Assembly: GCF_012427705.1 (NCBI RefSeq)
Contig: NZ_CP048602.1
Coordinates: 1,178,001 to 1,242,000 of the forward strand
Direction: 5' to 3'
Source: Vreelandella piezotolerans
GTDB taxonomy: Bacteria > Pseudomonadota > Gammaproteobacteria > Pseudomonadales > Halomonadaceae
DNA: 64,000 nt
Shown: piece after piece, positions 26,301-43,057 of the stretch
Layout: each line of letters begins with the position of its first letter
Numbering within the stretch: position 1 is the stretch's first letter
Made by a program: the position numbers and the translations under genes
The notes under the pieces: model-generated
Database searches by the model: none
The model's input: only the letters and a program-made list of their open reading frames with translations
Told to the model about the DNA's origin: nothing

Positions 26301-29300
26301 ATGCGAGACGTCCTTTCCACCTGCCAGCCACGACCCGAGATCCTGGCGGGCACCTTCAACCCTGAGATCTTCACGGCCAGCCTGAGCCGCGTACTGGGCG
26401 ACTATCGCAAGGGGGAGGCCCGCGAAGGAGCCAGCTCGCTCTACTCCGACCCAGTGGCCTTCTTCCGGGATGCCACACACCCGACCCAGGGCCTATGCAC
26501 GATCCTGGATAACGCCCTGGCCAGGTTGACCAACGGCGATTTGTCCCGGCCAGCGATGCAGCGGTTGGATACCGCCTTCGGTGGCGGCAAGACCCACACG
26601 CTGATCGCCTTGGCTCATGCGGCCATGCAGGGCCAGCCCCTGGCCGAGCACATGACAGGGATCGTGGAGCCTGAGCGGCTGCCGGAGCCCAACCTGGTCC
26701 AGGTGGTAGGGATCATCGGCGACACCGTGGACACGCTCAGAGAAACCGCCGGCGGGGCGGCTCCCAAGCCCAACACCCTGTGGTGGCAGATCGCCCAGCA
26801 GACCCTTTCATCCGACCAGCAGGCTTCCATTCAGGCGCGCCTTGATGATGCCTCGGCGCCGGCCTCGGATGAGTTCTTCGAGACGCTGTTCGGCGACCGG
26901 CCGACGCTGATCATCATCGATGAGATCGCACAGTACCTGTCGCGGATGGAAGCCGCCTTCCCGGGCGTGGGTGCCGAGCAGTCCGCTGCCTTCCTGATGT
27001 CGCTCTCCACCTACGCTGCCGGTAAACCCAATGTCGCAGTCGTGCTGAGCCTGGCCTCGGCAACCAATGCCTTCGGGAGCTTCAACAAGCTAATCGGAAG
27101 TCTGAAAAGCACGCACGGTTTCACCGATGCGCAGGCTGAAGCTATCGTGGCCGATGCCCAGAAGAGCGTGCTGGACGTCGTCAACCGCACCTCCGAGGCT
27201 ACGACGCCGGTGCAGGAGGGCGACCTATCGCGCATCATGGCCAAGCGCCTGTTCGTGTCGGTCGATCTCGAGGCGGCAAGCGAAGTTGCCTCAGCGTTCA
27301 TCGAGACCTATCGCCAAGCTGGGACGGATCTGCCGGCCGGAGCCAACGACCCACAGCTGCATGATCGCCTGATAGCGCACTATCCCTTCCACCCCACGCT
27401 GATCGAGTTCCTCTCCGAGGAGCTGGCCCAGGTCGAGAGCTTTCAGGGTACCCGGGGGCTGCTACGCACCCTGGCACGGGCCGTGCGGCGGATCTGGGAG
27501 GCCAAGCTCGCTATCCCGCTGATCCAGACCGGCCATATCGATCTCTCGGATGGGACCATCCGCGGTGAGCTGCTGGGCAAGACGGACAACACCGATTTCG
27601 TCTCCGTGCTCGACTCCGATATCAGCAAGGCCTCAGGCACTCAGACCACTAGCCGTACCGTGGCCGGCGAACTGGATGCCGCCAACCCCCATCCCGATGG
27701 CTACCCGGTGCACGAGTGGGCTTGGCGCGTGGTCTTCCTGCACAGCCTGATCGGTCGTGGAGGTGGTCAGCAGGACGAGAAGTTCGGCATCGACATGACC
27801 TCGGCGGTCTATGAGATGGCCTCACCCGCCATCAAGCCGGCCACCGTGCGTTCCGCCCTGGAAACCATCGAGCGTGAGGCGAACTACCTCCGCGAGCGTA
27901 ACGGTCGGCTGTATGCCGACACGGTACCGACGCTCAACAACATCCTGCGTCGTATCGAGGGCAACGTGGCCTACCCGGAGGCCATGACGCGTGTCGAGCA
28001 GGTCGTTCGGGGCCTGATCAAGCAGTCGTCCGTGTTCGATATTCATCCCAATATCGATGATGGTGAAGGGATTCCCGACAAGACGCGCAAGCCGCAGCTG
28101 GGCGTCATCGCCTTCGGGGTGGAAGCACTGGATCCGGCGCGCTTTATCGAGCGCCGCGGCGAGGCAGTTCGCGAGTACCAGAACCAGGTGTTCCTGCTAG
28201 CTCCCAGCACCACCCATATTGCCGGCTCGACCTGGACGGAAGCGCGTACGCACCAGGAGCACCGCACCCGGCAGAACATCCTTACCCTGGCGCGCAAGGC
28301 CATCTCCGTGGAGCGCCTCAAGGAAAACCCCGAGAACTGGGGTGTCAGTCATGACCAGCTTCAAAAAGGGGAGTTCAGGGAACGGGCCGCCAAGAGCCCG
28401 GCCGAGCTGCGCACGGCCATCGACGAAGCCTATCGTTTCCTGATCTACCCGGGGCGTGATGGTGGCCGTGTGGTGGTGCGCGATCTGGGCAAGCGTGGTG
28501 CCGGTCCCACCGCAGGTGGCTCCAGCGGCCTGCACCTGGAAGATGCCATCCTCAAGCAGCTAGCCGAGGAAGGCGAGCTGATCACCGAGGAACGTGCTTC
28601 CACCGCAGAAGCGGCGACGCTGCTCGGCAAGCTGTTCTTCGAGAACCAAAAGCAGGTCAATGTCAGTGACCTCGTGGAGCGCTTCGCCACGCGCCGTAAC
28701 TGGCCGATACTGCAACGTCCAGCGCTGCTGGCCAACGTGCTGGTAGAAGGCGCCAAACGCAGCAGTTGGTGTCTGGGCCACATGCCCGATAAGAAGGCCC
28801 ACAAGCCCGATGCCCTCTATCACAAGGACAACCCGCCGCCGTTGACGGTGGAGCCCCTGGGGAAGGATGGCGAAGGCTGGATTCTCTGCACCAAGGAGCA
28901 CGCCAAGCAGCTGGGCTGGCTGGAGAGCATCGTACGCGACCCCAATACCGTCGCAGCCTGGATCGAGCAGACCATCCAGAGCCGTGATCAGGTCGACCTC
29001 AGCCAACTGCCGCAGATCATCGAGCAGGAGCATGACAAGGTCGACCCACACGTCTACCAGCAGCAGCTGGAGAATCTCTTCGCTCAGCGGCAACTGGCGG
29101 CCTATCCGCAGGAAGCGTTCAACGAGGAGGGTGACGCCGACCCCGAACAGGCGATGACAGGGGATACTGTACCCGTTGGCGGCGTGACGGGCGGCATCGT
29201 GGTGCCCTACCAGACGGCACAGGCGCGGGGCTGGATCAGCAAGCCCAAGGTCGAGAACCGCGCATTCCTGCTGCGCACACCCGACAAGGTCAAGCAGCTC

Positions 29301-29567
29301 TTTAACCTGCTGGCGGGTACCGTACTAAGTCAGTCCACCACTGAAGTTCAGATGCTGCAGATTCAGGCGGAAACCCCCGACAAAGGCCGTTTCCAGCTGG
29401 CCATGGGTCCTACCACGGTTGGTGGCCTGGTCGAAAGCCGCTCCCTGTTCGCGGCCCTGAACAGCCGTTTACGCTTTACTACTGAACAGCATCAGGTTCG
29501 CCTGACCCTCGGTGAGCTGGATCAGAACTGCAAGTTCACCAAGATGCTCGAGCAACTGGAAGGATAA
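26301..29567 (+). CDS. DUF499 ATPase of a restriction-like defence system
   Basis: 1088 residues from the ATG at 26301 (AGGGAG 8 nt upstream). The Walker A variant AFGGGKTHTL lies near residue 95 and the Walker B PTLIIIDEIAQYL near residue 205. RPEILAGTFNPEIFTASLSRV near the N-terminus and a long C-terminal region complete the DUF499 architecture. DUF499 proteins are related to BrxC/PglY of BREX systems and accompany DUF1156 methyltransferases in defence islands. First gene of a run of nine plus-strand genes, it probably supplies the ATP-driven core of the complex. Confidence 0.88.
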   Translation: MRDVLSTCQPRPEILAGTFNPEIFTASLSRVLGDYRKGEAREGASSLYSDPVAFFRDATHPTQGLCTILDNALARLTNGDLSRPAMQRLDTAFGGGKTHTLIALAHAAMQGQPLAEHMTGIVEPERLPEPNLVQVVGIIGDTVDTLRETAGGAAPKPNTLWWQIAQQTLSSDQQASIQARLDDASAPASDEFFETLFGDRPTLIIIDEIAQYLSRMEAAFPGVGAEQSAAFLMSLSTYAAGKPNVAVVLSLASATNAFGSFNKLIGSLKSTHGFTDAQAEAIVADAQKSVLDVVNRTSEATTPVQEGDLSRIMAKRLFVSVDLEAASEVASAFIETYRQAGTDLPAGANDPQLHDRLIAHYPFHPTLIEFLSEELAQVESFQGTRGLLRTLARAVRRIWEAKLAIPLIQTGHIDLSDGTIRGELLGKTDNTDFVSVLDSDISKASGTQTTSRTVAGELDAANPHPDGYPVHEWAWRVVFLHSLIGRGGGQQDEKFGIDMTSAVYEMASPAIKPATVRSALETIEREANYLRERNGRLYADTVPTLNNILRRIEGNVAYPEAMTRVEQVVRGLIKQSSVFDIHPNIDDGEGIPDKTRKPQLGVIAFGVEALDPARFIERRGEAVREYQNQVFLLAPSTTHIAGSTWTEARTHQEHRTRQNILTLARKAISVERLKENPENWGVSHDQLQKGEFRERAAKSPAELRTAIDEAYRFLIYPGRDGGRVVVRDLGKRGAGPTAGGSSGLHLEDAILKQLAEEGELITEERASTAEAATLLGKLFFENQKQVNVSDLVERFATRRNWPILQRPALLANVLVEGAKRSSWCLGHMPDKKAHKPDALYHKDNPPPLTVEPLGKDGEGWILCTKEHAKQLGWLESIVRDPNTVAAWIEQTIQSRDQVDLSQLPQIIEQEHDKVDPHVYQQQLENLFAQRQLAAYPQEAFNEEGDADPEQAMTGDTVPVGGVTGGIVVPYQTAQARGWISKPKVENRAFLLRTPDKVKQLFNLLAGTVLSQSTTEVQMLQIQAETPDKGRFQLAMGPTTVGGLVESRSLFAALNSRLRFTTEQHQVRLTLGELDQNCKFTKMLEQLEG

Positions 29568-29576: not shown

Positions 29577-30209
29577 ATGGCCACCACCGCCACCAAGACG
29601 GCGCCCCGCGGGCGCCGCAAGAGCTCACAGGCCGATGAAGCGCAGTTGGCCAAGCTGGCCAGGCGCTCGCCCTATGTGCTGCGCCTGACGCGCCACAAGG
29701 ATCTGCCGCCCCCGGTGCTGGTTGTCAAGGAGCGCATTGCACCGGAAGACCGTGACGATACCGAAGGGCTGACCAATCCCAGGGCCAAGCACGTGGAGCG
29801 CGGCACCCTACACGGCGAGAGCGTGCGTGCCTGCCTGCCGGTCCTCAAGCGCATCCTGGAAGAGGTAAATGACGAGCAGGGTATCCCGCTGGGCCTGGAG
29901 CGTTTCATGTCCGCCCAGGGGCTCAAGCAGACCGATATCAACTTCCCTCTGGATGAAGCTGCCGGTGCACGACTGGCGCTGTTCTTCCGCCTGCAAACCA
30001 AGGTGAAGGACGTCGACCGCATCGAGCTGATCGGACGCCGGGTCGCGATGTTCTCCCGGGAGGAGGCCGTCTACTGGCTGGCCAACGTGACGACCGCCGA
30101 CCCGGCGTTGCGCAGCTGGGCCACCAGTGGATTACGCATGCTGCTTTGCGGCGAGGCCGGTGACAAGCGCGTGCCGCGTATCCTGGAGAAAGTGCGCGCT
30201 CGTGGCTGA
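29577..30209 (+). CDS. Small partner protein of the DUF499/DUF1156 system
   Basis: 210 residues, beginning 9 nt after the DUF499 stop. The N-terminal ~25 residues are basic and Ser/Thr-rich (RGRRKSSQ). The rest is predicted helical, with the C-terminal segment AVYWLANVTTADPALRSWATSGLRMLL. In related loci this position holds a small DUF3780- or DUF7680-type protein. The assignment to either is from position and size, not a motif I can prove. Confidence 0.7.
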   Translation: MATTATKTAPRGRRKSSQADEAQLAKLARRSPYVLRLTRHKDLPPPVLVVKERIAPEDRDDTEGLTNPRAKHVERGTLHGESVRACLPVLKRILEEVNDEQGIPLGLERFMSAQGLKQTDINFPLDEAAGARLALFFRLQTKVKDVDRIELIGRRVAMFSREEAVYWLANVTTADPALRSWATSGLRMLLCGEAGDKRVPRILEKVRARG

Positions 30210-30224: not shown

Positions 30225-30293
30225 GTGGCTCGCAGAGCGGGCCGGAAATGGCAGCTTAGCCGTGTCAAGAACGGCAGCGCCAAGAATGCATGA
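30225..30293 (+). CDS. Possible 22-residue basic peptide
   Basis: A GTG at 30225 preceded by GGATAGGA opens a short frame (VARRAGRKWQLSRVKNGSA...) ending at TGA 30291-30293. It fills part of the 131-nt gap between two tightly packed genes. Only the ribosome-like box and the basic composition support it. Confidence 0.2.
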   Translation: MARRAGRKWQLSRVKNGSAKNA

Positions 30294-30340
30294 TCAGCCA
30301 GGCCCGCCGCCTGGCTGTCACTTTACAAGGAAGCAGCACC

Positions 30341-33300
30341 ATGGATTTCAGCAACGACCAGCGCCTGATCGAAGCCGGCTTTCCCTGCCACCAGGTGGGG
30401 GCGGAGACCCAGCGTGAGCGCGGTGCCAGCTCGGCACTGCCGCCGCTCTACTACCTGCACGTCTGGTGGGCCCGGCGGCCCCTGACGCCTAGTCGTGCGG
30501 CCATCCTGGCGTCTCTGCTGCCTGCTGATGCCGACTCCGAGGAGTTTGTTAAAGGCCTTGGTATTCGACTGCAAGTAGCCGAAGTGGGTGGTGTTGGTTG
30601 GGTGCTGAATGAAGCTAAGCTTCGTGATCGCGTCACTGTGCAGGATGGTCAAGCGATACTGGAAGTGGATGGCGTCATTCACCGTGCCTTGATCAAAGAG
30701 CAGGAAGCACGTTATGAGCAGCAGGCCTTAATTGGGGAGATGCTCAACAAGACACCTGAGCTTGCAGAGGAAGAGGCTATACAGAAATGGCAACAGCTAG
30801 TTCAGGACTTTCCTTATTTGCCACAGCAGGGTGAATGGCTCCATGTTCATGAAGAAATGGGCGACCCAGCTTGGTTCAAGGAGCTAATGGAGCTTGCCAA
30901 ACAGGCTGGAGTGAGGGTGCCCAACCTTTATGGCTATGACCGTGCGTACCAGAATGCGGCACCGCTTACCAAAGATCCCAAGGTGATCCTGGATCCTACC
31001 TCGGGTGGTGGTTCCATTCCTTTCGAAGCACTCCGACTAGGTCATAAGGTCATCGCCAACGAGCTTAACCCTGTTGCCAGCGTGATCCTCAAGGCCACTC
31101 TCGATTATCCAGCTCGTTTTGGCTCTGAATTGCTGAAGGATATTCAGCACTGGGGAGAGCGTCTTGAGTCTACTCTCGACGCAAGGATGAGGCCTTTTTT
31201 TCCTAGCTGCGATGCCGAAATCGATCTGTCACATCCTGAAGCAGTTAATCGGGATGCGTCATATCTTTATTGTCGTCAGGTGACCTGCCCCCACTGTTCG
31301 GGCGATGCACCTCTACTTAACTCCCTATGGCTTTCCAAGGTGGGTGACAAGTGGGGAGTGGCAGTCAAGCCTCAGCCCGACAGGACAGTGCGCTTCGAGC
31401 CCTTCGAGGTGACCAGCGGCAATCGCGGCCCCAACGGAGAAGACCTGGATGCCGGCACCGTAACCCGCGGCGTGGGCCAGTGCGTGCACTGCCATCAGGC
31501 GATCTCGGGGGATGAAATCAAACGTCAGGCCCGTGGCGAGTCAGAGCTGGGGAAATGGAAGGACGTGCTGTACTGCGTGGTCGGCATCCGCATCGAGCCC
31601 AATCTAGACAAACATGGCAAAGTGCAGCGCTTCGCCTCAGGTGAGCGGAAGGGAGAGATCAAGACAGGCAAGGTACGCTACTTCCGTGCGGCGAATCAGA
31701 AAGATTTGGAAGCGCTGCATGCGGCAGAGCAGGAGCTGGAGGAGGGTCGCCTTGAGTTTGAGATGAAGGGGCTTATGCCAAATGAGCCTTTTCCTCAAGG
31801 TAACGATATGCGCCCGGTCAACTATGGCATGCCAACCTGGGCAGACCTGTTTACCCCGCGTCAACTGTTAGGCCATCTTAGTGTGATGGAGGCACTGCAG
31901 GAGGCGAAACCTGAAATTCTCTCAGAATTTGGGGAAGATAAGGGGCGGGCACTGATTACCTATCTTCAGTTCGCGATTGACAAAATTGTGGATTATAACA
32001 GTCGGCAGACGCGCTGGGAGTATACCCGAGGTGTCATTAAAGGAGGTTTTGGTCGGCATGACTTTTCTTTAAAGTGGACTTTCGGTGAGATGGTCTATGC
32101 TGGCCCATCATCAGGGTTAAAATGGGGGCTTTCTCAAGCGGCTGATGCATATAAGGGGATAGCAGCCTTGGTGAAAGAGCGGGGGGCGCTCGGGATCAAG
32201 GAAGGTGAAGTTTTACAGATTCAAGGCTCAGCGACAGATATGTCCGATGTCGCTGATGAAAGTGTCGATGCTGTGGTGATGGACCCACCTTACTACGACA
32301 ACGTCCAGTACAGCGAGCTCTCTGACTTCTATTACGTCTGGCAAAAGAAAACGCTCGGGGATCTGTATCCAGGTTGGTTCGATCAGGAAGTGACTGACAA
32401 GGCGTTGGAAGCCGTCGCCAATCCGGCTCGCGACGGCTCAGCCAAGAGCGCCAAGGCTCGCTATGAGGAGCTGATGCAGGGCATCTTTGCCGAGAGCAAG
32501 CGGGTGCTCAAGCCGGACGGCATCATGACGCTGATGTTTACCCACAAGAGCTCTGATGCTTGGGAAACCCTCACCAATGCGCTTATTCAGTCCGGTTGGG
32601 ATATCACAGCCTGTATGCCAGTCGAGTCTGAAAGCGGCTACTCAACCCACCAGATGAATATGGCCTCGGCCGCCTCCACCATCTTTATCGCCTGCCGCCC
32701 GGCAGACCGCCGTGATCGCGAGCCCTCCAGCTGGGCCTATGAGGTCAAGGGCAAGCTGGAAGCCGCGGTGCGTGAGGGTCTGGTCGAGTTCGAGCGCCTC
32801 AAGCTTAACCCCGTCGACCGCATGATTGCCTCCTGGGGCCGCGCCCTGCGCGTCTATTCCGCCCACTGGCCGGTTCAAGATGGCGACGAAGAGGTACCAC
32901 CCACCCGCGCCATGCAGGAAGCCGCCCGCGTGGTGGCTGAGGAGGAGGTCAGCCGCCTCTCCGGTGGCCTGGTCACCGTCGACGACCTGGATGCCGAATC
33001 CCGCCTGGCGGTGATCGCGCTCGGCATCAATGGTCTGGGCGACTTCGCCTTCGACGATGCTCTGCAGATGAGCCGCTCGCTCAACTTCCGCCTGCAGAAC
33101 CGTAACGGCAACTACCGCGTCAGCGACGATATGGTGGCCTATGCCAACGTCGGTGAGGACGAGCGCGCCGCGCCTCTGGCCATCAAGGGTAACAAGCTGC
33201 GCTTGCTCAAGCCGGAAGAGCGTGCCGCTGCGCGTCTGGAGAATCCGCAGACCCTGTGGGATGTGCTGGGTGGTCTGATCGTCACCTACCGCGACGGCGG

Positions 33301-33442
33301 CATCGTGGCAGCGCGTAACTTCCTGACCCAGCATGGCAAGCGCGACAGCGACGCCCTGCGCGGCCTGCTCAAGGTATGGGCCAAGGAGTGCCGCGACGAC
33401 GAGCTCAAGCGCGAAGCCCAGCTGATCGACTACGAGCTGTAA
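30341..33442 (+). CDS. DUF1156 DNA methyltransferase
   Basis: 1033 residues. N-terminal DUF1156 signature: EAGFPCHQVGAETQRERGA followed by PPLYYLHVWWARRPLTPSRAA. SAM-binding motif LDPTSGGGSIPFEALRLG near residue 220 and catalytic DPPY in VMDPPYYDNVQYSEL near residue 650, as in amino-methyltransferases (N6-adenine or N4-cytosine). Two CxxC knuckles lie between (CPHC near 325, CVHC near 385), likely a zinc site. It is the modification subunit of the cassette. GC content and codon use change several times inside the gene: AT-richer from about 30530 to 31370 and from 31620 to 32300, GC-rich elsewhere. Confidence 0.9.
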   Translation: MDFSNDQRLIEAGFPCHQVGAETQRERGASSALPPLYYLHVWWARRPLTPSRAAILASLLPADADSEEFVKGLGIRLQVAEVGGVGWVLNEAKLRDRVTVQDGQAILEVDGVIHRALIKEQEARYEQQALIGEMLNKTPELAEEEAIQKWQQLVQDFPYLPQQGEWLHVHEEMGDPAWFKELMELAKQAGVRVPNLYGYDRAYQNAAPLTKDPKVILDPTSGGGSIPFEALRLGHKVIANELNPVASVILKATLDYPARFGSELLKDIQHWGERLESTLDARMRPFFPSCDAEIDLSHPEAVNRDASYLYCRQVTCPHCSGDAPLLNSLWLSKVGDKWGVAVKPQPDRTVRFEPFEVTSGNRGPNGEDLDAGTVTRGVGQCVHCHQAISGDEIKRQARGESELGKWKDVLYCVVGIRIEPNLDKHGKVQRFASGERKGEIKTGKVRYFRAANQKDLEALHAAEQELEEGRLEFEMKGLMPNEPFPQGNDMRPVNYGMPTWADLFTPRQLLGHLSVMEALQEAKPEILSEFGEDKGRALITYLQFAIDKIVDYNSRQTRWEYTRGVIKGGFGRHDFSLKWTFGEMVYAGPSSGLKWGLSQAADAYKGIAALVKERGALGIKEGEVLQIQGSATDMSDVADESVDAVVMDPPYYDNVQYSELSDFYYVWQKKTLGDLYPGWFDQEVTDKALEAVANPARDGSAKSAKARYEELMQGIFAESKRVLKPDGIMTLMFTHKSSDAWETLTNALIQSGWDITACMPVESESGYSTHQMNMASAASTIFIACRPADRRDREPSSWAYEVKGKLEAAVREGLVEFERLKLNPVDRMIASWGRALRVYSAHWPVQDGDEEVPPTRAMQEAARVVAEEEVSRLSGGLVTVDDLDAESRLAVIALGINGLGDFAFDDALQMSRSLNFRLQNRNGNYRVSDDMVAYANVGEDERAAPLAIKGNKLRLLKPEERAAARLENPQTLWDVLGGLIVTYRDGGIVAARNFLTQHGKRDSDALRGLLKVWAKECRDDELKREAQLIDYEL

Positions 33443-33454: not shown

Positions 33455-34849
33455 ATGCTCACTGAGCTGCGACTGCAGAACTTCAAGGCCTGGCGTGATA
33501 CCGGTCCCATGCGCCTGGCACCGCTTACGGTGATCTTCGGCACTAACAGCTCAGGCAAGTCGAGCCTGGGCCATCTGTTGATGGCTCTGAAGCAGACAGC
33601 GCTGCTGACCGATCGCAAGCGCTCTCTGCATCTGGGCGACGACAACTCGCTGATCGATCTGGGCACCTTCGAGGATTGCCTATACGACCACGACCTGAAC
33701 CAGACGCTGGGCTTCTCGCTGAGCTGGAAGAGTCGGGAGCTTCTTGAGCTGAGCGACATCCTCAATCCTGACCAGACTTTTTGTGGCGATGAGCTAACGC
33801 TTGCGGCGGAGATCGCGGCCAGCAAGACGCAGCAACCCGAGACGCGGCAGTTCTCCTACACTCTGCACAGGGGCGATGATGAGGTGCTCAAGGTTCGGCA
33901 TGGGCGCCGTGATGGAAAGCCTTTCCTCAAGTGCGAGCCGCTGCGCCTGGTGCATGCCCAAGGCCGAAACTGGGGTGTCGAATCGCCGGAGAAATTCTAC
34001 CGTTTCTCGGACAAGACGCTGTCGCGCTACCAGAATGCGCACTTCCTGACCGACTTCGTGCTGGAGACCGAGCAGCTGCTGGAGAACTTCTACCACCTCG
34101 GCCCGCTCCGCAGTCCCCCCAAGCGTGTCTATCCCTGGTCGGGTGATACCCCGCCCGATGTCGGAGCGGAAGGCGAGCTGACCATACCGGCGCTCCTGGC
34201 GGCCACCCAGCAAGGTAGGAAGCTGAATCGTGGGCCCAAGCAGAAGTATCAGCCCTTCGATGCCTTCATCGCCGGTTGGCTCAAGAACTTGGGTATCATC
34301 CACGAGTTCAAGGTCGAGCCCATCGCGGAGGGACGTAAAGAGTACGAGGTGCTGATCCAGACCCATACTGGCGCCCCCGAGGTAAAGCTGACCGATGTGG
34401 GGTTTGGCGTCTCGCAGATCCTGCCGGCCCTGGTTCAGGCCTTCTATGCCCCGCCGAACTCGGTACTATGGATGGAACAGCCGGAAATCCATCTCCACCC
34501 GCGCGTTCAAGCCAATCTGGCGGATGCCTTCATCAGCGCGATCCAAGCACGAGAGGATGGCGAACATCGCAATACCCAACTGATCATCGAGAGCCACTCC
34601 GAGCACTTCCTAAATCGTCTGCAGCGACGCATCGCCGAAGGCGGGGTGACACCCGATGAAGTAGCGATCTACTTCGTGACGCGCAATCGTCATGGCGCCC
34701 ACCTCGAGCCGCTACTACTCAACGAGTACGGCGATATCGAGAACTGGCCAGACGATTTCTTCGGTGATGACATGGAGGACATCACCCAGAGGGCGCTGGC
34801 GGCGGCGCGCAAGCGCAAGGTCAGGAAGGCACAGGGGGCAGGTACATGA
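33455..34849 (+). CDS. DUF3696-type AAA ATPase (SMC/OLD-like)
   Basis: 464 residues. N-terminal LTELRLQNFKAWRDTGPMRLAPLTVIFG leads into Walker A GTNSSGKSS near residue 32. The C-terminal half has the ABC-like Walker B VLWMEQPEIHLHPRVQANL near residue 345 and the switch-like IIESHSEHFLNRLQRRI. This is the AAA15/21 architecture shared by OLD-family and AriA-like ATPases that sense phage proteins and control a partner effector. Here the partner is probably the PIN protein encoded with a 4-nt overlap. Good AAGGAG box before the ATG. Confidence 0.88.
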   Translation: MLTELRLQNFKAWRDTGPMRLAPLTVIFGTNSSGKSSLGHLLMALKQTALLTDRKRSLHLGDDNSLIDLGTFEDCLYDHDLNQTLGFSLSWKSRELLELSDILNPDQTFCGDELTLAAEIAASKTQQPETRQFSYTLHRGDDEVLKVRHGRRDGKPFLKCEPLRLVHAQGRNWGVESPEKFYRFSDKTLSRYQNAHFLTDFVLETEQLLENFYHLGPLRSPPKRVYPWSGDTPPDVGAEGELTIPALLAATQQGRKLNRGPKQKYQPFDAFIAGWLKNLGIIHEFKVEPIAEGRKEYEVLIQTHTGAPEVKLTDVGFGVSQILPALVQAFYAPPNSVLWMEQPEIHLHPRVQANLADAFISAIQAREDGEHRNTQLIIESHSEHFLNRLQRRIAEGGVTPDEVAIYFVTRNRHGAHLEPLLLNEYGDIENWPDDFFGDDMEDITQRALAAARKRKVRKAQGAGT

Positions 34850-35385
34850 GGCGAGCCGTGGTCGATACCAACGTGCTGCTGGTGGCGAATGATGATCATG
34901 AGGGCGTTTCAGAGGAATGCATCATTGCCTGTATCGAGGCCATTGACGAGATCCGCCGTCGCGGCGTCGTGGTCATCGATGATAGCTGGAGGCTGCTCGA
35001 GGAGTACCTGCACAAGCTGGATCCAAACAAGGGCCAGCCCGAGCCCGGCGACGCCTTTCTCAAGTGGCTGCTGCAGCGTCAGGCCAATCCAAAGCATGTC
35101 GCCCAGGTGTCGGTGACCGAATCGGCAGCGGACTGGTTCGAGGAGTTCCCCAATCACGAACTCCAAAAGGTGTTCGATCCACCGGATCGCAAGTTTATCG
35201 CTGTGGCGGCGGCTGATGATGGCAATCCACACGTGCTTCAGGCCGCCGACTGCAAATGGTTGAGCTGGTGGCCGCAGCTTGCCGAGGCAGGGGTTCGCTT
35301 CCGCTTTGTGTGCCCAGTGGATGTGAAGCGCTTTTACCGCGGTAAGTTCGACGGTCCTGTTCCGGAGCTACCGCAGGATGAGTGA
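34846..35385 (+). CDS. PIN-domain nuclease
   Basis: 179 residues. N-terminal VVDTNVLLVAND gives the first acidic residue. DDSWRLLEEY near residue 46 supplies the second acidic patch, and FDPPDRKFIAVAAAD near residue 114 and QAADCKWLSW near residue 138 supply the remaining aspartates of the PIN active site. PIN domains are metal-dependent ribonucleases. It starts inside the stop of the AAA gene (ATGA) and overlaps the RNA ligase gene by 8 nt. It is most likely an effector RNase gated by the AAA ATPase. Confidence 0.82.
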   Translation: MRRAVVDTNVLLVANDDHEGVSEECIIACIEAIDEIRRRGVVVIDDSWRLLEEYLHKLDPNKGQPEPGDAFLKWLLQRQANPKHVAQVSVTESAADWFEEFPNHELQKVFDPPDRKFIAVAAADDGNPHVLQAADCKWLSWWPQLAEAGVRFRFVCPVDVKRFYRGKFDGPVPELPQDE

Positions 35386-36061
35386 GTTCTTCCGCTTTCC
35401 CCATACACCGCACCTTGCCTGGCTCGGCGAGGGGGAGCCCCGCGACGACAAGCTGCTCGATCCTCCAGAGGTCGAGGCGATGTTGGCCGGCGAGGTGCTG
35501 ATTGAGGAGAAGCTCGACGGTGCCAACCTTGGCATTTCCTGGGGAGAAGAAGGTCAGCTGCGCACACAGAACCGTGGGGCTTACCTTGAGGCGCCTTACC
35601 GTGGCCAGTTCTCGCGCCTTAACCAGTGGCTGATGCAGCACCTCGCGGTGTTCCAGGAACATTTACTCGAACACGTCATTCTCTTCGGCGAGTGGTGCGC
35701 TGCGCGCCACTCGCTGGATTATGCCGCCTTGCCGGATTGGTTCCTGGTTTTCGATGTTTACGACCGACAGGCCCAGCGCTTTTGGAATCAGGCAAGGCGC
35801 AATGTGCTGGCCAGCCAACTGGGGCTTTCCGTGGTGCCGCTACTCAATCGAGGGCGTTTCACCGTCAAGGAGCTGGAAGGCCTGGTACTTACCGGCCGTA
35901 GCACCTACCGAGATGGCAGGCTGGAAGGCCTCGTGATTCGCCAGGATGGGCCGCAGTGGTGCGAACGCCGCGCCAAGCTTGTTCACCCTGATTTTGTGCA
36001 ACAAATCGAGGAACACTGGCGGTCAAGGGCATTGGAATGGAATGAGCTGGCGGTGAACTAG
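35378..36061 (+). CDS. RNA ligase family protein (Rnl2-like nucleotidyltransferase)
   Basis: 227 residues. All nucleotidyltransferase motifs can be read: motif I EEKLDGANLGIS with the adenylated Lys near residue 44; motif III LFGEWCAARHS near 103; IIIa WFLVFDVYD near 121; motif IV RLEGLVIR near 184; motif V RAKLVHPDF near 197. That is the T4 Rnl2/REL-type adenylyltransferase domain without a C-terminal accessory domain. Such enzymes seal nicks in RNA. The gene overlaps the PIN nuclease gene by 8 nt, so the two are made together. Confidence 0.85.
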   Translation: MSEFFRFPHTPHLAWLGEGEPRDDKLLDPPEVEAMLAGEVLIEEKLDGANLGISWGEEGQLRTQNRGAYLEAPYRGQFSRLNQWLMQHLAVFQEHLLEHVILFGEWCAARHSLDYAALPDWFLVFDVYDRQAQRFWNQARRNVLASQLGLSVVPLLNRGRFTVKELEGLVLTGRSTYRDGRLEGLVIRQDGPQWCERRAKLVHPDFVQQIEEHWRSRALEWNELAVN

Positions 36062-36092
36062 ATTTTGACATTTGGACGAAGAGTACGCAGGG

Positions 36093-37793
36093 ATGAATTC
36101 GATAACAGGTCAAGATAAAAAAGTTCACGAAATATTCTCTAAGGAGAATAAATTCAATATTCCTGAGTATCAAAGGCCTTATTCTTGGGGTGTTGATCAG
36201 TGCGATGAGCTATTGGGAGATCTGATTGGTTTTCAAAAAGAAGAAGAGTCTGATGATTACTTTCTTGGTAGTATAGTTGTTGCCAAAAGCCCTGGAGATA
36301 ATTTTACTTTTGATGTTGTTGATGGGCAGCAGCGACTCACCACTTTGACTATCTTGCTCTCTGTTATTTCTCATTGCCTGCGTGGTGCAGAAGGAGAAGG
36401 TGCGTTTGAAAAGTATATTGCCCCTTCTGATGTGTCGTTGAATATACCTCCGCAGCCTAAGCTTTACCTCAGGAAGAATGACAGAGATTTCTTTAAAAAA
36501 TTTATTCAAGATCCAGGTGGTATCGAAGGGATAAGGTCTGTCAAGGAATCCAGTTTGAAGGATTCTCAGTTTAATATTTACAAGAACGCAAGGTTTTTTT
36601 TGACCCGGCTTGAGGGCGTGAGCTCAAAGGAAATATTAGAGTTCGGTCGCTTTGTTGTTGCCAGATGTGTGGTTGTTTTTGTGACAACTCAAGGAATCGA
36701 AACTGCATATCGTATCTTTTCAGTTATGAATGACCGAGGCCTTGACCTTCAAGCATGCGACCTTCTGAAAGCGGAAATAATAAGCAAGATAGAAAATTCG
36801 GAAGAAAGAACAGGCTACAATGAGATGTGGGAAGAGATGGAGGAGCGACTGGGTCGCGATTCATTCAATTCACTATTCCCATATGTGAGAATGATTAAAG
36901 CAAAGTCCAAAGCTAGAAGATCTACCGTAGAGGAGTTTAGGCGAGAGGTTGTTAAGGGGTGTGATCCGAAGAGTGTAGTTAATGATACTCTTCTTCCTTA
37001 TAGCGAAGCGCTGACTATAATCAGCCACCAATGCTATCAAGATGGAGGGACCGAAGAAGAGAAAAAGATAAACCAGTTGCTGACTTGGTTAGGGCGGCTA
37101 AATAACTCGGACTGGGTGCCAGTTGCTATGGAGCTGGTAAGGATATTTGAAAGTGATCCCAAGATATTGCTTTCACACTTGGAAAAGCTGGAGCGCTTGG
37201 CGGCAGCAATCCTTATTCGTGGCAGCTATGTCAACTCTCGAATAAAGCGATACTCCAGAGTGCTTGCAGCGATAGAGGCCCGAGAGGATCTGCTTCAGGC
37301 TGGATCCGCGCTGGACATTGCTGAGGAGACTCAGCTTGAGGTTCTCAAGTACCTTAACGGTGATATTTACTGGTATGCAGGTCCGATAAAAAGCTATGTG
37401 ATGCTTCGCCTGGATTCATTCTTATCTGGCGAGGGCGTGGATTATGAGCATAGCGTCACGACAATTGAGCATGTGCTGCCACAAAATCCTAAAAATGAAT
37501 CGGTATGGAACAAAGACTGGTCAGAAGAAGAGCGTGTGAAATGGACGCATCGGCTTGGTAACCTGGTGCTTCTTTCCAGGAAGAAGAATCCTCAGGCTTC
37601 CAATCATGACTTCAAGAAAAAGAAAGAGGTTTATTTCAAAACCGATAAAGGAGTTTCTCCCTATGCATGCACTACTCAAGTTTTGAACCATGAAAACTGG
37701 ACGCCAAAAGAAGTTCAGGAGCGACAGAAGGACATACTTAAGGTTTTGGCGAGCAATTGGAGCTTGAAGGGACTCGAGCTCGTTGAGGTTTAA
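36093..37793 (+). CDS. DUF262-DUF1524 (GmrSD-like) nuclease
   Basis: 566 residues. N-terminal DUF262: FNIPEYQRPYSWGVDQCDELL, then the DGQQR motif in FDVVDGQQRLTTLTIL near residue 85 (the NTPase/sulfiredoxin-like site). C-terminal DUF1524 HNH-like nuclease: IEHVLPQNP near residue 455 and HRLGNLVLLSRKKNPQASNHDF near 485. Fused proteins of this kind include type IV restriction enzymes that cut glucosylated-hydroxymethyl-cytosine DNA. It is much more AT-rich than its neighbours on both sides and looks like an insertion into the operon. Confidence 0.88.
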   Translation: MNSITGQDKKVHEIFSKENKFNIPEYQRPYSWGVDQCDELLGDLIGFQKEEESDDYFLGSIVVAKSPGDNFTFDVVDGQQRLTTLTILLSVISHCLRGAEGEGAFEKYIAPSDVSLNIPPQPKLYLRKNDRDFFKKFIQDPGGIEGIRSVKESSLKDSQFNIYKNARFFLTRLEGVSSKEILEFGRFVVARCVVVFVTTQGIETAYRIFSVMNDRGLDLQACDLLKAEIISKIENSEERTGYNEMWEEMEERLGRDSFNSLFPYVRMIKAKSKARRSTVEEFRREVVKGCDPKSVVNDTLLPYSEALTIISHQCYQDGGTEEEKKINQLLTWLGRLNNSDWVPVAMELVRIFESDPKILLSHLEKLERLAAAILIRGSYVNSRIKRYSRVLAAIEAREDLLQAGSALDIAEETQLEVLKYLNGDIYWYAGPIKSYVMLRLDSFLSGEGVDYEHSVTTIEHVLPQNPKNESVWNKDWSEEERVKWTHRLGNLVLLSRKKNPQASNHDFKKKKEVYFKTDKGVSPYACTTQVLNHENWTPKEVQERQKDILKVLASNWSLKGLELVEV

Positions 37794-37808
37794 TGATTGG
37801 AGGTGGGC

Positions 37809-40800
37809 ATGACATTACGTGACTTTTCTTGGGAGCCGAGCTATGCCACTTCCGATATTCGTGAGGATGGTAAGCTGGTCGATGTGCTGCATGACTTCTA
37901 TATCCCGGCGCTAAGGCGGGCGACCCGCTATGACCGTGTCGCCGGCTATTTCACGTCCTCTTCGCTTGCAGCGGCATCACAAGGGTTTTCACGTTTTGTC
38001 GAGAACAGTGGTGTGGCGCGCTTCGTGGTAGGCATGCAGCTCGACCCCGAAGATGCCGCCGCGATTCTGCAAGGCGATGAGCAGCGTGCGAGTCAAGTGA
38101 TGCTGGCTGAGCTCGAGTCTTCCCAGCAATGGCCCACCGCATTACGCCATGGCGTCGAACTGTTGGCGTGGATGGTGGCTAATGGCCATCTGACCATTCG
38201 GGTGGGTCTGCGTGTACATGCTCAGGATGGTACCCCACAACCCATGGACTTTGCCCAGGATGGTTACCTGCATGAGAAGTGGGCGATCATTGGCGATGGC
38301 CAAGATGAGCTATTCATTTCGGGCTCGTTGAACGAATCCCGAACGGCGCTTGCCATCAATGCCGAAAACATTACCGTCCAGCCCTCGTGGGAAGAGTGGA
38401 ATCGCAAGCTCTTCGCACAAAAGCATCGCAGTTTTCTCGCTCTCTGGGAGGGGAAGCATCCTGCCATCAAGACGTTCTCCCTACCCGAGGCGGTCAAGGC
38501 CGAGTTGGTAAAAATCGCCAGTCGCACCAGTGGGCTGTTTGAGATCGATGGCACGCCCATGTCGCGGAGTCCACACCAAGTCCGTGAGAAAGACGAGCTA
38601 AAGCCCAGCCTGTCCGAGCGCCTTAGTTTTGCTTTGATCCGCCTGGCGCCATTGCTCCCTGGTGGCGAGCGAATTGGGATTGAGACCACGCCTATCGAGC
38701 CCTGGCCTCATCAGCGCTTCGTGGCCAGCCGCTTGTTGGACACCTATCCGCGCAATCATCTGCTCTGTGATGAGGTGGGTCTTGGCAAAACCATTGAGGC
38801 GGGTCTGGCTTTTCGTTCCCTTTGGCTCAGTGGCCGTGCCAGCTCAATACGGGTGTTTGCCCCGGCCTCGTTGACCTCGCAGTGGCTGGTTGAGATGGCC
38901 GAGAAGTTCTTCCTGCCCTTCGTGAGGCGCACGTCTCGCAAGGGGCGCTGGGAGCGTCTTGACATGCTCAGCGGCGAGCCCATCCAGGGCGATGGACAGA
39001 TGTTCGATGCCCCGCTGGAGATCGTCTCTACTGGTTTGGTTATCAACCGCCATGGAGGCCGATTGCTGTCGAGCTTGCCAGAGACGGATCTGGTGCTGGT
39101 GGATGAGGCCCACAAGGCCAGGCGCCAGACGCCCGATAACCAGACCACCATGCCTCGCTTCAATAAGCTCTATCAGGAGCTGCAGAGCTCGCTGTATGGC
39201 AAGTCACGGACCCTGCTGCTGGCTACGGCGACACCGATGCAGCTCAATCGGGTCGAGGCCTTTGATCTGCTTAAGCTGATGCCCTCTGCAGGCGCCGTAC
39301 AGTTCTCCGAAGACCTATGCGAGATCTTCTACCGGGTCCGGGACAAGCTGCTGAACAACGATCCCATGGCGGACTACGAAAGCGAGTGGCTACGCCGCTA
39401 CCTGAACAATGTCCGTGCGTCATCGCCCGAGCAGTGGCAGTTCGTGCATGAGCATGTGCTCTCTACCTTTGGTAAGAGCGGTTTGGATGACTTTGTCGAG
39501 CGCTGGGTTGAGCCCATCTTTGGCTGGGATGAGGTGCAACCGGCGCTGAGCCTGCTGGCACCGCTGGGCCGCAGCATGCTTCGCCACACCCGCTCGCTGC
39601 TGCGCGCTTATCAGCGGGAAGGTCTGCTGAATGCCAACCTGGCATGGAGAGAAGTCCACCCGGGTATCATCCCCCTGGCTGGGGTGGAGCGTGAGGTCTA
39701 TGACGAGCTACAGGCTTACTGTGCCGAACTGGCCAGCCATATGGCCGCCAACATGGAAGAGGGTCAACAGAGAGCGGCTATCGGTTTCTACCTCAGCTTC
39801 CTGCGCCTCCGTTATTCGTCCTCTTTCCATGCACTGCGATGTTCTCTCGAGAGGCGCCTGGTAAAAATTCAGCAAACCCTGGATCACAAGGCTCAGCAGC
39901 TCACCAATAATGATGCCGATCGGGAAGAGTTGGAAGAGCTAGGTGATGAAGAGGTCGAAGGGTTGATCCTCAAGCATCGCACCGAAAGTGATCTGACGTG
40001 GGAGCAGGGCGCTGTAGCCCGTTTGATTTCCACAATGGACCGGCTCCCGACGACGCCGTCTAAGATGCAGCAGTTACTGAAGGACATCGAAAAGCGACGA
40101 ACCAATGGCACCGACCGTGTACGGCAGTTGGTACTGTTTACACGTTACGCCGACACCATGAACTACCTTCATGATGAGTTGAGGCGGCTACTCCCTGGGT
40201 GTCCAATCGGTACCTTCTCCGGAGCTGGTGGTACCCTGCGCCGTGCTGGTGAATACCATCCTGAAAGGCTTGATCGCACGACGATCAAGCAACGTTTCGT
40301 CGCTGGCAAAATCGACATCCTGTTATGTACAGATGCGGCAGCAGAAGGTTTGAACCTGCAGAGCGCTGACCTGCTGATCAACTTCGATTTACCCTGGAAC
40401 CCGATGATGCTGGAGCAGCGCATCGGCCGCATCGATCGTATCGGCCAGCATCACGAGCACATCCACGTGCTTAACTACCTCTATCAGGATAGCGTGGAAG
40501 AGGTGGTGTACTCGCGCTTGGTCAGGCGTTTCCGTGAGGCACTTACTGTATCCGGCGAGCTGCAATTCTCGCTTCTTCCCATCCAGCCAGAGGATTTCGA
40601 GGATTACGCCAAGGCAGAAGGTGAGGAAGGCAAGATCGACGAAGAGGAGCTGATTCGCCGAGCCCAGCGGCATGCGGAGCGCATCAAGGAGCGACAACAG
40701 CTCACTGAGTTCAAGGCGGAAGAGCAGAAGGCGGCTTATGAACATCTCGAGGCCCAGCGTCGTGCAGAGCCGATGCCGGCGACTCTGGAGGATATCTGGC

Positions 40801-41588
40801 GGGCCATTAGCGAGAGTCAGTATCTCAGGGCTCTGGGAGGCGGCATCGAAAGCTTCAAGCATGGGGATGCTTACCGGGTGGTCGACGTCCCCGGGTTACC
40901 TAAGGAAGTGTTGCTGACGACCTCTCGGGAGCTCTATGAGCATGGCCTTGGAGAGTCTGATCATCGCAGACTGCACTTTGCGACCTATGGCGACCCTGTC
41001 TTTGAGAAGCTGCTGGATTACATGCTGCAACCGCTGGAAGCGGTGCAAGCCGCATGGCAGTCGCGCAAACCACTGGGATCCGTGCGCGTAGCTGACTATG
41101 ACCTGAAAACCTTCGAGGAAGCCTTTGGCGTTAAAATTGGTGAAGAATCTGATATTGAGCTGGTAGAGCGCTCCCTCCCGTTAGCGAAACGACAAGATGA
41201 CCGGATTGGGCGTCAGCAGAAGGTCATGCTGGATACCGTATCCGCCAGCCTTGCCGAGCTGAAGTTAAAACCCAACCCCGAGACAGCTAATAACCAGATT
41301 GCTGAGATTGATCGGTTCCGATCTGATGTCAACAACCGACATGGACAACGAGTGCATCTGAAGTTTGATGCGCCGGATCGCAGTGGAATGCTGGCGTTGA
41401 AGGATAAGCTTCTGTGGCCAGTGTTGCAAAAGAAAGATGGGCTAACAGTCGATGCGGATCCTCTGCTGTTAAGTGCAGCTAGAGATGTCATATTCAGGCA
41501 GCTTGGGGATATGAAAAGAGACAGTCGGACTAGCCATGATGTGGCTAGGCGTTTAGATGACGGCGCAAAACAGCTCTTGTCGAGATGA
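37809..41588 (+). CDS. PLD-SNF2 helicase of the restriction-like system
   Basis: 1259 residues from the ATG at 37809, preceded by GGAGGTGG. The N-terminal 250 residues carry a phospholipase-D-like segment with HEKWAIIGDGQDELFISGSLNES (HxK...GSxN) near residue 155. The SNF2 motor follows: motif I CDEVGLGKTIEAG near 320, motif II DLVLVDEAHKAR near 428, and C-terminal motifs LLCTDAAAEGLNLQSADLLINFDLPWNP and EQRIGRIDRIGQ near 840-875. The PLD part may be the nuclease and the motor a DNA translocase. The last ~530 nt are less GC-rich. It overlaps the next gene by 4 nt. Confidence 0.9.
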   Translation: MTLRDFSWEPSYATSDIREDGKLVDVLHDFYIPALRRATRYDRVAGYFTSSSLAAASQGFSRFVENSGVARFVVGMQLDPEDAAAILQGDEQRASQVMLAELESSQQWPTALRHGVELLAWMVANGHLTIRVGLRVHAQDGTPQPMDFAQDGYLHEKWAIIGDGQDELFISGSLNESRTALAINAENITVQPSWEEWNRKLFAQKHRSFLALWEGKHPAIKTFSLPEAVKAELVKIASRTSGLFEIDGTPMSRSPHQVREKDELKPSLSERLSFALIRLAPLLPGGERIGIETTPIEPWPHQRFVASRLLDTYPRNHLLCDEVGLGKTIEAGLAFRSLWLSGRASSIRVFAPASLTSQWLVEMAEKFFLPFVRRTSRKGRWERLDMLSGEPIQGDGQMFDAPLEIVSTGLVINRHGGRLLSSLPETDLVLVDEAHKARRQTPDNQTTMPRFNKLYQELQSSLYGKSRTLLLATATPMQLNRVEAFDLLKLMPSAGAVQFSEDLCEIFYRVRDKLLNNDPMADYESEWLRRYLNNVRASSPEQWQFVHEHVLSTFGKSGLDDFVERWVEPIFGWDEVQPALSLLAPLGRSMLRHTRSLLRAYQREGLLNANLAWREVHPGIIPLAGVEREVYDELQAYCAELASHMAANMEEGQQRAAIGFYLSFLRLRYSSSFHALRCSLERRLVKIQQTLDHKAQQLTNNDADREELEELGDEEVEGLILKHRTESDLTWEQGAVARLISTMDRLPTTPSKMQQLLKDIEKRRTNGTDRVRQLVLFTRYADTMNYLHDELRRLLPGCPIGTFSGAGGTLRRAGEYHPERLDRTTIKQRFVAGKIDILLCTDAAAEGLNLQSADLLINFDLPWNPMMLEQRIGRIDRIGQHHEHIHVLNYLYQDSVEEVVYSRLVRRFREALTVSGELQFSLLPIQPEDFEDYAKAEGEEGKIDEEELIRRAQRHAERIKERQQLTEFKAEEQKAAYEHLEAQRRAEPMPATLEDIWRAISESQYLRALGGGIESFKHGDAYRVVDVPGLPKEVLLTTSRELYEHGLGESDHRRLHFATYGDPVFEKLLDYMLQPLEAVQAAWQSRKPLGSVRVADYDLKTFEEAFGVKIGEESDIELVERSLPLAKRQDDRIGRQQKVMLDTVSASLAELKLKPNPETANNQIAEIDRFRSDVNNRHGQRVHLKFDAPDRSGMLALKDKLLWPVLQKKDGLTVDADPLLLSAARDVIFRQLGDMKRDSRTSHDVARRLDDGAKQLLSR

Positions 41589-43057
41589 GCAGGGGAGGGG
41601 ATGTGAGCGAGACGTTACAGGATGAAGTTGCTGATATCAGTGAAGCCCAGAGTCTTCGTGAGCTGGACGACCAGCTGACTGCCGTTATGGCGGCTCGCCA
41701 TGTGCAGGAATTCATCCATGGTGACCGCCTTTCCTTGATTGTACAGCGCGCTCAGGCGCTTTGTGAGTTGAATAGTGCTGAGGAGAGGCTGTTGTTGGCC
41801 TCGGTGCTGGGACGCCTTGCTGCCGTAGCGCGAGGCCGAAGCGGCGAGGTGTTTGAAGGTTTTCAGCACTTCATGACGGAACCACCGGCTTCACTGGCAG
41901 TGCTACAGGATGGTGACGAGAAGGCCTATGCTGCCTTGGCATTAGCCAACTTGGGAGAGCTCAGCCCTGCCTGGTTGAGTGACTACGTCATTCGTGAGGC
42001 CTTCGCCCTGGATGCCGCCGAGAATGCCAGGAAGGCACTTCTGATCATTCTAAGGGATCATTCTGATGACTATCTGGCGATATTGAACAGCCTGGCTCAG
42101 GGCTTTGATGGCCTGCAGATCGAGGCACCGGATGCACGGCTGAGAAGAGTCAAGCGGGTGCTCGAGGCCTGGAAGGAAGTAGCTCAAGACCACTTCTGGG
42201 CGCTTGAGGCAAACCCAGGGGAAGCCATCTCCCGTGTCGTTAAGGCGGCCATGCGCAAAGTGACTGGAGCCAAGGAAGAAGCACTCGCAAATGAAGTTGG
42301 TGACCTGCTCTTCGAACTGCTGCTGCGCGTGGTACAGCTTCGGTTCTCCTATGCGCTGGAGTCGGCTACCTATGCGCCTCTGGCTACCCTGAAGGCGCAT
42401 CTGGGAACTCGTTTATGGACATATCTGCGTGGTCACTCCGCCGTCAAGCCCCGGGTGCTCTCCTGCTTGCGCGAGGCGTGTCTCGTACTTGCACGCCAGG
42501 GGCAGACTGACATGGCCATGCTCGATGCCATGAAGGTGATGTATGCCACTCGTACCAGTATGGGCAATGACCTGCGGCGCCACTTCGAGGGCCATCACGA
42601 GTTGGATTCCGAAGTGGCGGAGTGGTGGACCTCAGGGGGCACTAAGCGAGCCTCCAACGCTAAGAAGGAAAAATCGCTAAAGTCCGATGAGGACATGCTG
42701 ATCGGCCAGCTGTTGCTGGAAGGTGAAAGCGCCCGGCGCCCGCTGGACAATGTGCGAACCAATCTGCTGCCACTGATCGAGGAGTTCGTTCATGATCCTG
42801 TGGTGACCGCTTCACTGCGCAAGGGGCTTGGTGGCTTCGTGGAGCTTTCCACAGTCCTGCGTCAGCTATGCCGCATGCGACGCTTGGAACTGTCTGGGCT
42901 TGAGGGAGAAATCATCACCTACAACCGCACCCGACATGAAATGGTTAGCGGGCATCAGCCGGGGGTAACGAAAGTCAGAGTGGTACGTGATCAGGTCGTG
43001 CAAAAACTCTATGGTCGTGAAAGAGTTTTGGTGAAAGCGTTAGTTGAGCCGGTATAG
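41585..43057 (+). CDS. Uncharacterised helical protein in the defence operon
   Basis: 490 residues starting in the ATGA overlap. A GTG at 41603 behind GGAGGGGAT is an alternative start. I do not recognise the family. The sequence reads as repeated amphipathic helices (a HEAT-like pattern from about 60 to 330), a short charged linker near 355-370 (KRASNAKKEKSLKSDED) and a C-terminal helical domain. It is followed after 38 nt by the Hsp70-like gene, so an adaptor or nucleotide-exchange role for that ATPase is imaginable but unproven. Confidence 0.75.
   Translation: MSRGGDVSETLQDEVADISEAQSLRELDDQLTAVMAARHVQEFIHGDRLSLIVQRAQALCELNSAEERLLLASVLGRLAAVARGRSGEVFEGFQHFMTEPPASLAVLQDGDEKAYAALALANLGELSPAWLSDYVIREAFALDAAENARKALLIILRDHSDDYLAILNSLAQGFDGLQIEAPDARLRRVKRVLEAWKEVAQDHFWALEANPGEAISRVVKAAMRKVTGAKEEALANEVGDLLFELLLRVVQLRFSYALESATYAPLATLKAHLGTRLWTYLRGHSAVKPRVLSCLREACLVLARQGQTDMAMLDAMKVMYATRTSMGNDLRRHFEGHHELDSEVAEWWTSGGTKRASNAKKEKSLKSDEDMLIGQLLLEGESARRPLDNVRTNLLPLIEEFVHDPVVTASLRKGLGGFVELSTVLRQLCRMRRLELSGLEGEIITYNRTRHEMVSGHQPGVTKVRVVRDQVVQKLYGRERVLVKALVEPV

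Follow-up and report, generated by a model that had tools for sequence, protein, structure and literature searches.

An ATPase, a PIN nuclease and an RNA ligase form a conserved three-gene unit with a possible role in virus defence

We analysed 64,000 nucleotides (nt) of the Vreelandella piezotolerans genome (contig NZ_CP048602.1, positions 1,178,001 to 1,242,000 of the forward strand), called the window below, in which a restriction-like operon holds three genes encoding an ATPase, a PIN nuclease and an ATP-dependent RNA ligase. We found that this trio is one conserved unit, old and widespread. The ATPase and the nuclease are already catalogued as the PADLOC candidate HEC-03 (HEC for Hma-embedded candidate; PMC12988326), and the ligase is a new third component. 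We put the chances at about even that the unit is a virus defence, made of an RNase gated by the ATPase and a ligase that reseals its cuts. The three genes in the window are as follows.

33455..34849, + strand: ABC/SMC-type ATPase with a DUF3696 C-terminus (HEC-03B, 426.5 bits; AAA_15, DUF3696); predicted sensor and gate
34846..35385, + strand: PIN nuclease (HEC-03A) with a VapC-like fold; predicted RNA-cutting effector
35378..36061, + strand: ATP-dependent RNA ligase, made up solely of a nucleotidyltransferase domain and a conserved C-terminal tail

The ATPase and PIN genes overlap by 4 nt, and the PIN and ligase genes by 8 nt. Both the coordinates and the typing of the operon given below confirm the preliminary description of three overlapping genes inside a restriction-like operon.

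Linkage of the three genes across genomes and plasmids

An alignment of 20 PINs was run against species genomes and matched 238 stretches, of which 163 encode relatives; we kept the best 80, i.e. the nearer half of the family. The ATPase gene adjoins the PIN gene at all 80 loci, and the ligase is present at 76, in the order ATPase-PIN-ligase. As for the other four, the contig of L083 ends 17 bases past the PIN gene, an HNH_2 gene takes the place of the ligase in L049, and in L028 and L084 the ligase is absent from that position.

The same linkage was observed in two draws of genomes, 369 from the class and 398 from the phylum, with some genomes common to both. Six class genomes have the PIN and six a ligase match; four have both, side by side in each case. 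The HEC-03A family occurs in 13 of the 398 phylum genomes, with the ATPase adjacent in 13/13 and the ligase in 10/13. The ligase profile gave 16 matches in the phylum genomes, 12 of them with at least 200 bits, and 11 of these 12 are in a trio; the twelfth, in genome G007, is half a ligase next to an HNH_2 gene and hence a remnant. The remaining four matches are distant (111-124 bits) and have no PIN within the surrounding 1.5 kilobases (kb). Among plasmids, the PIN was found in 12 records and ligase matches in 33, 25 of which are listed. Nine of the listed matches have at least 45% identity, all adjoining a PIN gene and all in the 12 PIN records, and the other 16 have at most 33%. The three PIN plasmids without a ligase among the matches listed are from Acinetobacter soli, and in one of them (L128) an HNH gene follows the PIN gene.

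Chance adjacency of the three genes was considered and is ruled out by this recurrence (76 of the 80 loci; 11 of the 12 close ligases in a trio). The preliminary description had treated the three genes as one unit, and the search for their order bears this out, on plasmids too and mostly outside an Hma-like operon; the genes are clearly not adjacent in the window alone. The trio occurs in Pseudomonadota, in two Sphaerochaeta bins and in one Rhodococcus plasmid. A further locus, L065 from a Chloroflexota bin, is probably misbinned, since its ATPase stands beside that of Piscinibacter with a branch length of 0.

The three genes are also tightly packed. After three repeats were dropped, we had a unique set of 98 ATPase-PIN loci, 88 of which carry the ligase. 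Over these 88, the ATPase and PIN genes overlap in 75 and the PIN and ligase genes in 57. The gap from PIN to ligase is at most 30 nt in 86 of the 88, the exceptions being L081 (214 nt by script) and a plasmid with an interrupted ligase. Pairwise distances between loci also correlate, with a rho of 0.68 for ATPase against PIN, 0.63 for PIN against ligase and 0.48 for ATPase against ligase, and none of 999 permutations reached such values. Relatedness inflates them, so that they are no more than consistent with a lasting linkage of the three genes. The ligase has persisted while its nuclease changed deeply. In genomes G391, G418 and G438 the PIN has diverged widely, and in G438 it is only 23% identical to that of the window (E 0.002), beside a ligase with 57% identity. 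A related observation was made in L111, L112 and L137, where the ligase and the ATPase are of the trio type and the PIN is just 23-27% identical to that of the window (L137, L111); it may be a swapped or a fast-evolving nuclease.

We mapped the presence of the ligase on a tree of the ATPase from 97 loci, which was built by a quick method and carries a long-branch warning, including for the ligase-less L093, L094, L100 and L101. The presence or absence of the ligase changes six times on this tree, compared with 9.7 times in shuffles, and so the ligase looks like a long-standing member of the unit that was lost a few times, not like a recent insertion.

Conserved features of the three proteins

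Residue conservation was counted before the three repeats were dropped, i.e. over 101 ATPase/PIN loci and 91 ligases. The best PADLOC models for the ATPase after HEC-03B (426.5 bits) are NsnB (199.9), PDC-M55A (179.7) and AriA (81), and its Pfam matches are AAA_15, AAA_21, DUF3696 and a weak SMC_N. Its residues K35 and E344, which we take to be the Walker A lysine and a Walker B-type glutamate, and the motif D314-G-G-S320-Q321 are kept in 100 or 101 of the 101 loci. We also noted that the ATPase of the Acinetobacter soli plasmid L128 (7639-9004) is annotated as two overlapping coding sequences, and that the ATPase profile matches L128 and L049 in split pieces.

The PIN protein fits the HEC-03A model at 94.5-94.9 bits, and its gene adjoins and overlaps the HEC-03B gene. 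It has no Pfam match at 1e-3. Foldseek on its own gave no PIN match below E 0.001 for the structure model, a second aligner put VapC first, and no firm match to a solved structure was found by sequence. The residues D7, D45 and E53 are kept in 101 of 101 loci, D111 and D114 in 100 and D135 in 99.

The ligase has 227 amino acids, and its predicted structure is Rnl5/Rnl2-like. The alignment to known chains covers one domain only, e.g. residues 139-339 of 340 in 6vt3. This nucleotidyltransferase domain has the motifs I, III, IIIa, IV and V, to which we presumptively assign the conserved residues: K45, D47 and G48 are kept in 90 of the 91 ligases, E105 and F125-D126 in 91, and E183 and K200 in 90. 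The short tail is conserved as well (H213, W214 and N222 in 90/91). No PADLOC model matches the ligase at 1e-3. The aspartates of the PIN and the Rnl2-like motifs had both been named from the window alone, and they turn out to be near invariant. Selection thus keeps both chemistries, since the catalytic residues hardly vary, even in the 10 PINs without a ligase, where the only exception is D135 replaced by E in L101. Such a PIN is not a dead gene.

We infer that the substrate is RNA, since the PIN model is VapC-like and the predicted ligase fold is that of an RNA ligase. The same enzymes could instead act on DNA, the PIN nicking it and the ligase closing the nicks, e.g. to spare the host chromosome during restriction; given the two folds we regard this as quite unlikely.

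The module brings its own ligase to the host, since a search of the host genome, a single contig of 3.95 Mb, found no RtcB and no PF09414 ligase other than that of the trio.

Relatives of the ligase are also found on the virus side. The ligase profile found 15 loci in viral contigs, of which L113 is close (58% identity, with the contig starting at the ligase) and L114-L127 have 27-33% identity. A search of viral contigs for the PIN gave four pattern matches, none of them a relative. Ligase matches occur in 193 phage records, 179 of them from Staphylococcus phages; all have less than 60% identity, and nine cover 80% of the query. It is possible that these ligases are phage-side counterparts. 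They also bear on a further explanation, that the PIN cuts twice or trims its target and the ligase then joins the wrong ends, leaving a shortened RNA beyond phage repair. The phage relatives would be the repair enzyme to defeat, and the conserved catalysis of the ligase would be needed here as well. Yet we see no sign of a second cut or of trimming, and simple resealing is the smaller assumption, so we consider this explanation very improbable.

Proposed mechanism and the role of the ligase

In the mechanism that we propose, the ATPase would sense infection and restrain the PIN nuclease. Once freed, the nuclease would cut a host RNA, e.g. a tRNA, and virus growth would be halted; the ligase would reseal the cuts, undoing stray damage or damage that has outlived its use. 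The ATPase is likely to be the gate because it is the sole partner that is never missing, a role that fits PARIS. Cut and seal presumably act on the same molecule. The cuts of a metal-dependent PIN are predicted to have 5'-phosphate and 3'-hydroxyl ends. An ATP-dependent ligase would join these without the help of a kinase or phosphatase, and neither is encoded in the three-gene unit. The PIN and the ligase would then be a self-sufficient cut-and-seal pair, since such ends need no healing before ligation. Ends that need healing first are described for metal-independent RNases (PMC9503650). Several reports are in line with parts of this mechanism: VapC enzymes cleave tRNA anticodon loops (PMC12409363), the unrelated defence systems DS-3 and DS-5 both depend on PIN residues (PMC13092281), and the undoing of toxin damage by a ligase has a precedent in RtcB, which reverses MazF cuts in rRNA (PMC5408214).

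Two kinds of observation weigh against it. First, VapC products have been treated as carrying a 5'-hydroxyl (PMC6459853). Second, the ligase is missing in 9 of the 98 unique loci with no contig edge to explain it, all with an open PIN frame. The earlier suggestion that the ligase limits leakage is therefore weakened as a strict need, given such relatives with intact PIN sites. Two of the nine (L049 and L128) have an HNH gene in the place of the ligase, which might substitute for it.

A toxin-antitoxin pair would be another way to read the adjacent PIN and ligase, with the PIN as a VapC-type toxin, the ligase as its antitoxin by repair or by binding, and the ATPase as secondary. The VapC-like fold and the ligase adjoining the PIN in 76 of 80 loci agree with it, and a like idea has been raised for HARP and Rnl3 (PMC12153264). 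However, the partner that is never missing is the ATPase (80/80 and 13/13), not the ligase; the PIN frame stays open in the nine loci without a ligase, allowing for HNH in two of them, and in the plasmid with an interrupted ligase; and catalytic residues, which the ligase keeps, would be needless for mere binding. A toxin-antitoxin pair is therefore unlikely in our judgement. Were the ligase the sole antitoxin, such loci should be rare or their PIN dead, and we infer that the ligase serves for repair and reset rather than as a plain antitoxin.

The interrupted ligase is found on the Aeromonas caviae plasmid L129 (9538-11615), where an IS256-type element lies inside the gene; the PIN and the ATPase are intact, and kindred plasmids have a whole ligase. 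At 14 of the 80 genome loci the module is joined by an HNH_2 protein of about 250 amino acids, whose gene mostly follows the ligase gene and, in L035, L063 and L078, precedes the ATPase gene. Examples are the following.

L024, 11235-12002: HNH_2
L040, 11234-11986: HNH_2
L049, 10537-11292: HNH_2
L128, 9538-10296: HNH_2

Genomic setting

In the window the trio belongs to a series of ten genes, all on the + strand, that spans 26226 to 44856. The other seven genes are listed below.

26226..29567, + strand: DUF499 ATPase, HmaC-like (HmaC 217.9 bits; NF042962 162.9 bits against a cut-off of 1200)
29577..30209, + strand: DUF7680 protein (PF24728, 112 bits)
30290..33442, + strand: DUF1156 DNA methyltransferase, HmaB-like (HmaB 218 bits), directly upstream of the trio
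36072..37793, + strand: GmrSD-type restriction enzyme (DUF262 and DUF1524), also embedded (GmrSD_N, GmrSD_C; Orf5 510 bits, HEC-06 236 bits)
37797..41588, + strand: SNF2-type helicase of the HmaA or PLD-helicase type (PLD_Helicase 225 bits, HmaA 184 bits)
41585..43057, + strand: PDC-M61A candidate defence protein (633 bits)
43096..44856, + strand: PDC-M61B candidate defence protein, Hsp70/actin-like (742 bits; HSP70 20.9 bits)

The methyltransferase gene stops 12 nt before the trio and the GmrSD gene begins 10 nt after it. By PADLOC the operon is Hma-like (HmaC, HmaB, HmaA), and it also holds GmrSD and the PDC-M61A/B pair; the pair forms the 3' end of the operon (41585-44856). We take it from these matches to be a relative of Hma and not the type form, since its helicase fits PLD_Helicase better than HmaA and the matches to the stricter DUF499, DUF1156 and PLD models of NCBIfam are below cut-off. 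The position of the GmrSD gene differs between loci: in L019 it precedes the trio, and L013 has no match. On the ATPase tree the closest kin of the window ATPase come from Halomonas. The operon region is flanked, as in a genomic island, by a tRNA-Ser gene (15490-15577) and a tyrosine-type integrase-like open reading frame (45678-46952, by eye). Six tRNA genes, with Glu and Gly alternating three times, lie at 9022-9579 of the window.

Restriction genes recur next to the module. We typed 30 neighbour proteins against PADLOC, 29 picked from 160 operonic ones and one beside them; 21 have a match at 1e-10 and nine have none. Eleven typed neighbour genes and three window genes were then used as 14 probes on the 98 unique loci, within 3.5 kb and on the same strand. 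A probed restriction gene is near in 33 of the 98 loci, as Hma in 9, DISARM or type IIG-like in 14, type III in 5, type I in 3 and mixed types in 2. The probes were drawn from these same neighbourhoods with crude picking of open reading frames, so that they favour types already known here and other defence genes may escape them; and L069, counted as Hma, rests on a helicase match alone. Among the loci whose flanks both reach 3 kb or more, a restriction gene is near in 28 of 64 compared with 0 of 20 control windows, and it is this contrast, not the exact share, that is the result. The controls were 20 windows of 20 kb from eight genomes at coordinates of our choosing, scored over the whole 20 kb and on both strands.

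No probed restriction gene is near at the other 65 of the 98 loci, among them 36 of the 64 that are well flanked. We considered that the trio might depend on the surrounding operon, which is ruled out by these loci, since they match none of the 14 probes. An operonic neighbour is lacking, by script, at 37 of 97 loci, short contigs counted in. The module is therefore self-standing and plasmid-borne too, with a liking for restriction operons. We also noted a Denitrificimonas-like group (L044, L046, L059, L062, L070, L083 and L092) with the module at a seemingly fixed chromosomal site and no probed restriction operon; ion antiporter-like and ATP synthase-like genes adjoin it where the contig extends (by eye).

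The window operon is of another type than those of L042, L043 and L048, where the order is hsdM-hsdS-trio-hsdR, a finding that strengthens the comparison with PrrC drawn in the preliminary description. The recurrent placement in restriction operons suggests, by analogy, that in many hosts the module may guard the restriction system, much as PrrC does for EcoprrI, although loci without such a system are found too. The preliminary description had the ATPase sense inhibition of the surrounding restriction system. Such inhibition would be at most one mode of triggering, because that system cannot be a required partner, given the 36 well-flanked loci with none of the probed restriction genes.

The setting also bears on whether the unit has a role in defence at all. 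The PIN and the ligase might process and circularise a cellular RNA, as has been proposed where such co-occurrence was published (PMC12153264). This reading does not account for the restriction genes near 28 of the 64 well-flanked loci against none in the control windows, nor for carriage on plasmids, the sparse presence in 13 of 398 genomes and the candidate status of HEC-03. An Rfam scan found tRNA-Ser alone; no Rfam or tRNA gene lies within the operon, the nearest being that tRNA-Ser gene, 18 kb off. The HARP family gave no match at 1e-3, and TIGR01209 gave the ligase 24.7 bits against a cut-off of 136.9. We therefore see little chance that RNA maturation is the function.

Returning to defence by a gated RNase and its ligase, we tentatively go one step further, with less confidence than in the mechanism as such, to a resettable form of abortive infection: the cell would cut its own RNA when its restriction system or the cell itself is attacked, the same molecules would be mended, and the cell would recover. 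RNA repair in conflicts with phages is usually told from the phage side, e.g. T4 mends the tRNA cut by PrrC (PMC12409363); here a host operon carries the ligase. If cut and seal share one RNA, a cell could go through abortive infection without dying of it, and the basal toxicity of defence nucleases would be answered by an enzyme.

Comparison with known systems

The trio resembles PARIS in having an ATPase of the same broad family as AriA (81 bits) and a separate metal-dependent nuclease, in the proposed logic of gate and effector and in the expected 5'-phosphate and 3'-hydroxyl ends. AriA keeps AriB inactive until a phage protein binds and then frees it as a tRNase; a 3'-hydroxyl is shown and a 5'-phosphate expected for the AriB cut (PMC12409363). 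The likeness to PARIS put forward in the preliminary description thus holds for the ATPase family and the logic and fails for the effector, which is a PIN here and a Toprim in AriB; the trio also has a ligase. Toprim gave no match at 1e-3 in the ten operon proteins. Similarly, OLD and Gabija differ from the trio, whose ATPase protein has no Toprim domain by Pfam.

The best models of the trio ATPase after HEC-03B are NsnB, presumably a component of Menshen, and the candidate PDC-M55A. Menshen includes a DUF262 gene, and the available text of its description mentions no PIN or ligase gene (PMC10952713). The window operon has DUF262 in its GmrSD enzyme.

In PrrC and RloC an ABC ATPase and an anticodon nuclease are fused in one protein; in the window the two are separate genes, and no such fusion was found by Pfam. 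We take PrrC to be placed between hsdS and hsdR, as is the trio in L042, L043 and L048. Both are nucleases within a restriction locus, PrrC being embedded in the type IC locus EcoprrI (PMC12707154). The PrrC nuclease is a HEPN (PMC12409363) and that of the trio a PIN, and the ligase is host-borne in the trio, not phage-borne.

The PIN shares with VapBC its fold and a conserved pattern of acidic residues. Unlike in VapBC, there is no VapB gene by the PIN gene; its neighbours are the ATPase and the ligase, with no room between. The ligases of the Rnl2/Rnl5 type carry an extra N- or C-terminal domain. The trio ligase shares the nucleotidyltransferase domain and motifs with T4 Rnl2 and Naegleria Rnl (Rnl5), but it lacks the extra domain and has a short conserved tail instead.

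A PIN-superfamily RNase linked genomically to an ATP-dependent RNA ligase has been described for the RNase P HARP and Rnl3, where toxin-antitoxin and circularisation ideas were weighed (PMC12153264). The PIN and ligase families are different there, and the genes are mostly opposite in direction, whereas those of the trio overlap in line. The available text of that report gives neither an ATPase nor a defence context.

The closest system is HEC-03, which appears in a survey (PMC13356809); several HECs are active according to PMC12988326, HEC-06 among them, with HEC-03 not named in the available text. Our search found no description of an ATPase-PIN-ligase module in the journal literature that it covered, with preprints, including one naming HEC systems, outside its scope, and no paper pairing DUF3696 with an RNA ligase. 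The novelty at first seen in the whole unit thus remains for the ligase and not for the ATPase-PIN pair. The A and B proteins match the HEC-03 models, are adjacent and lie inside an Hma-like operon here too, but PADLOC appears to have models for A and B only, and no PADLOC model matches the ligase. The HEC-03A model scores highest on the ligase-less loci L100 (251 bits) and L101 (174 bits), which group together on the ATPase tree in a ligase-less group, with long branches that make the placement unsure. Since its best scorers lack the ligase, the HEC-03 catalogue was probably drawn from a ligase-less branch, and hence the third gene would be missing from it.

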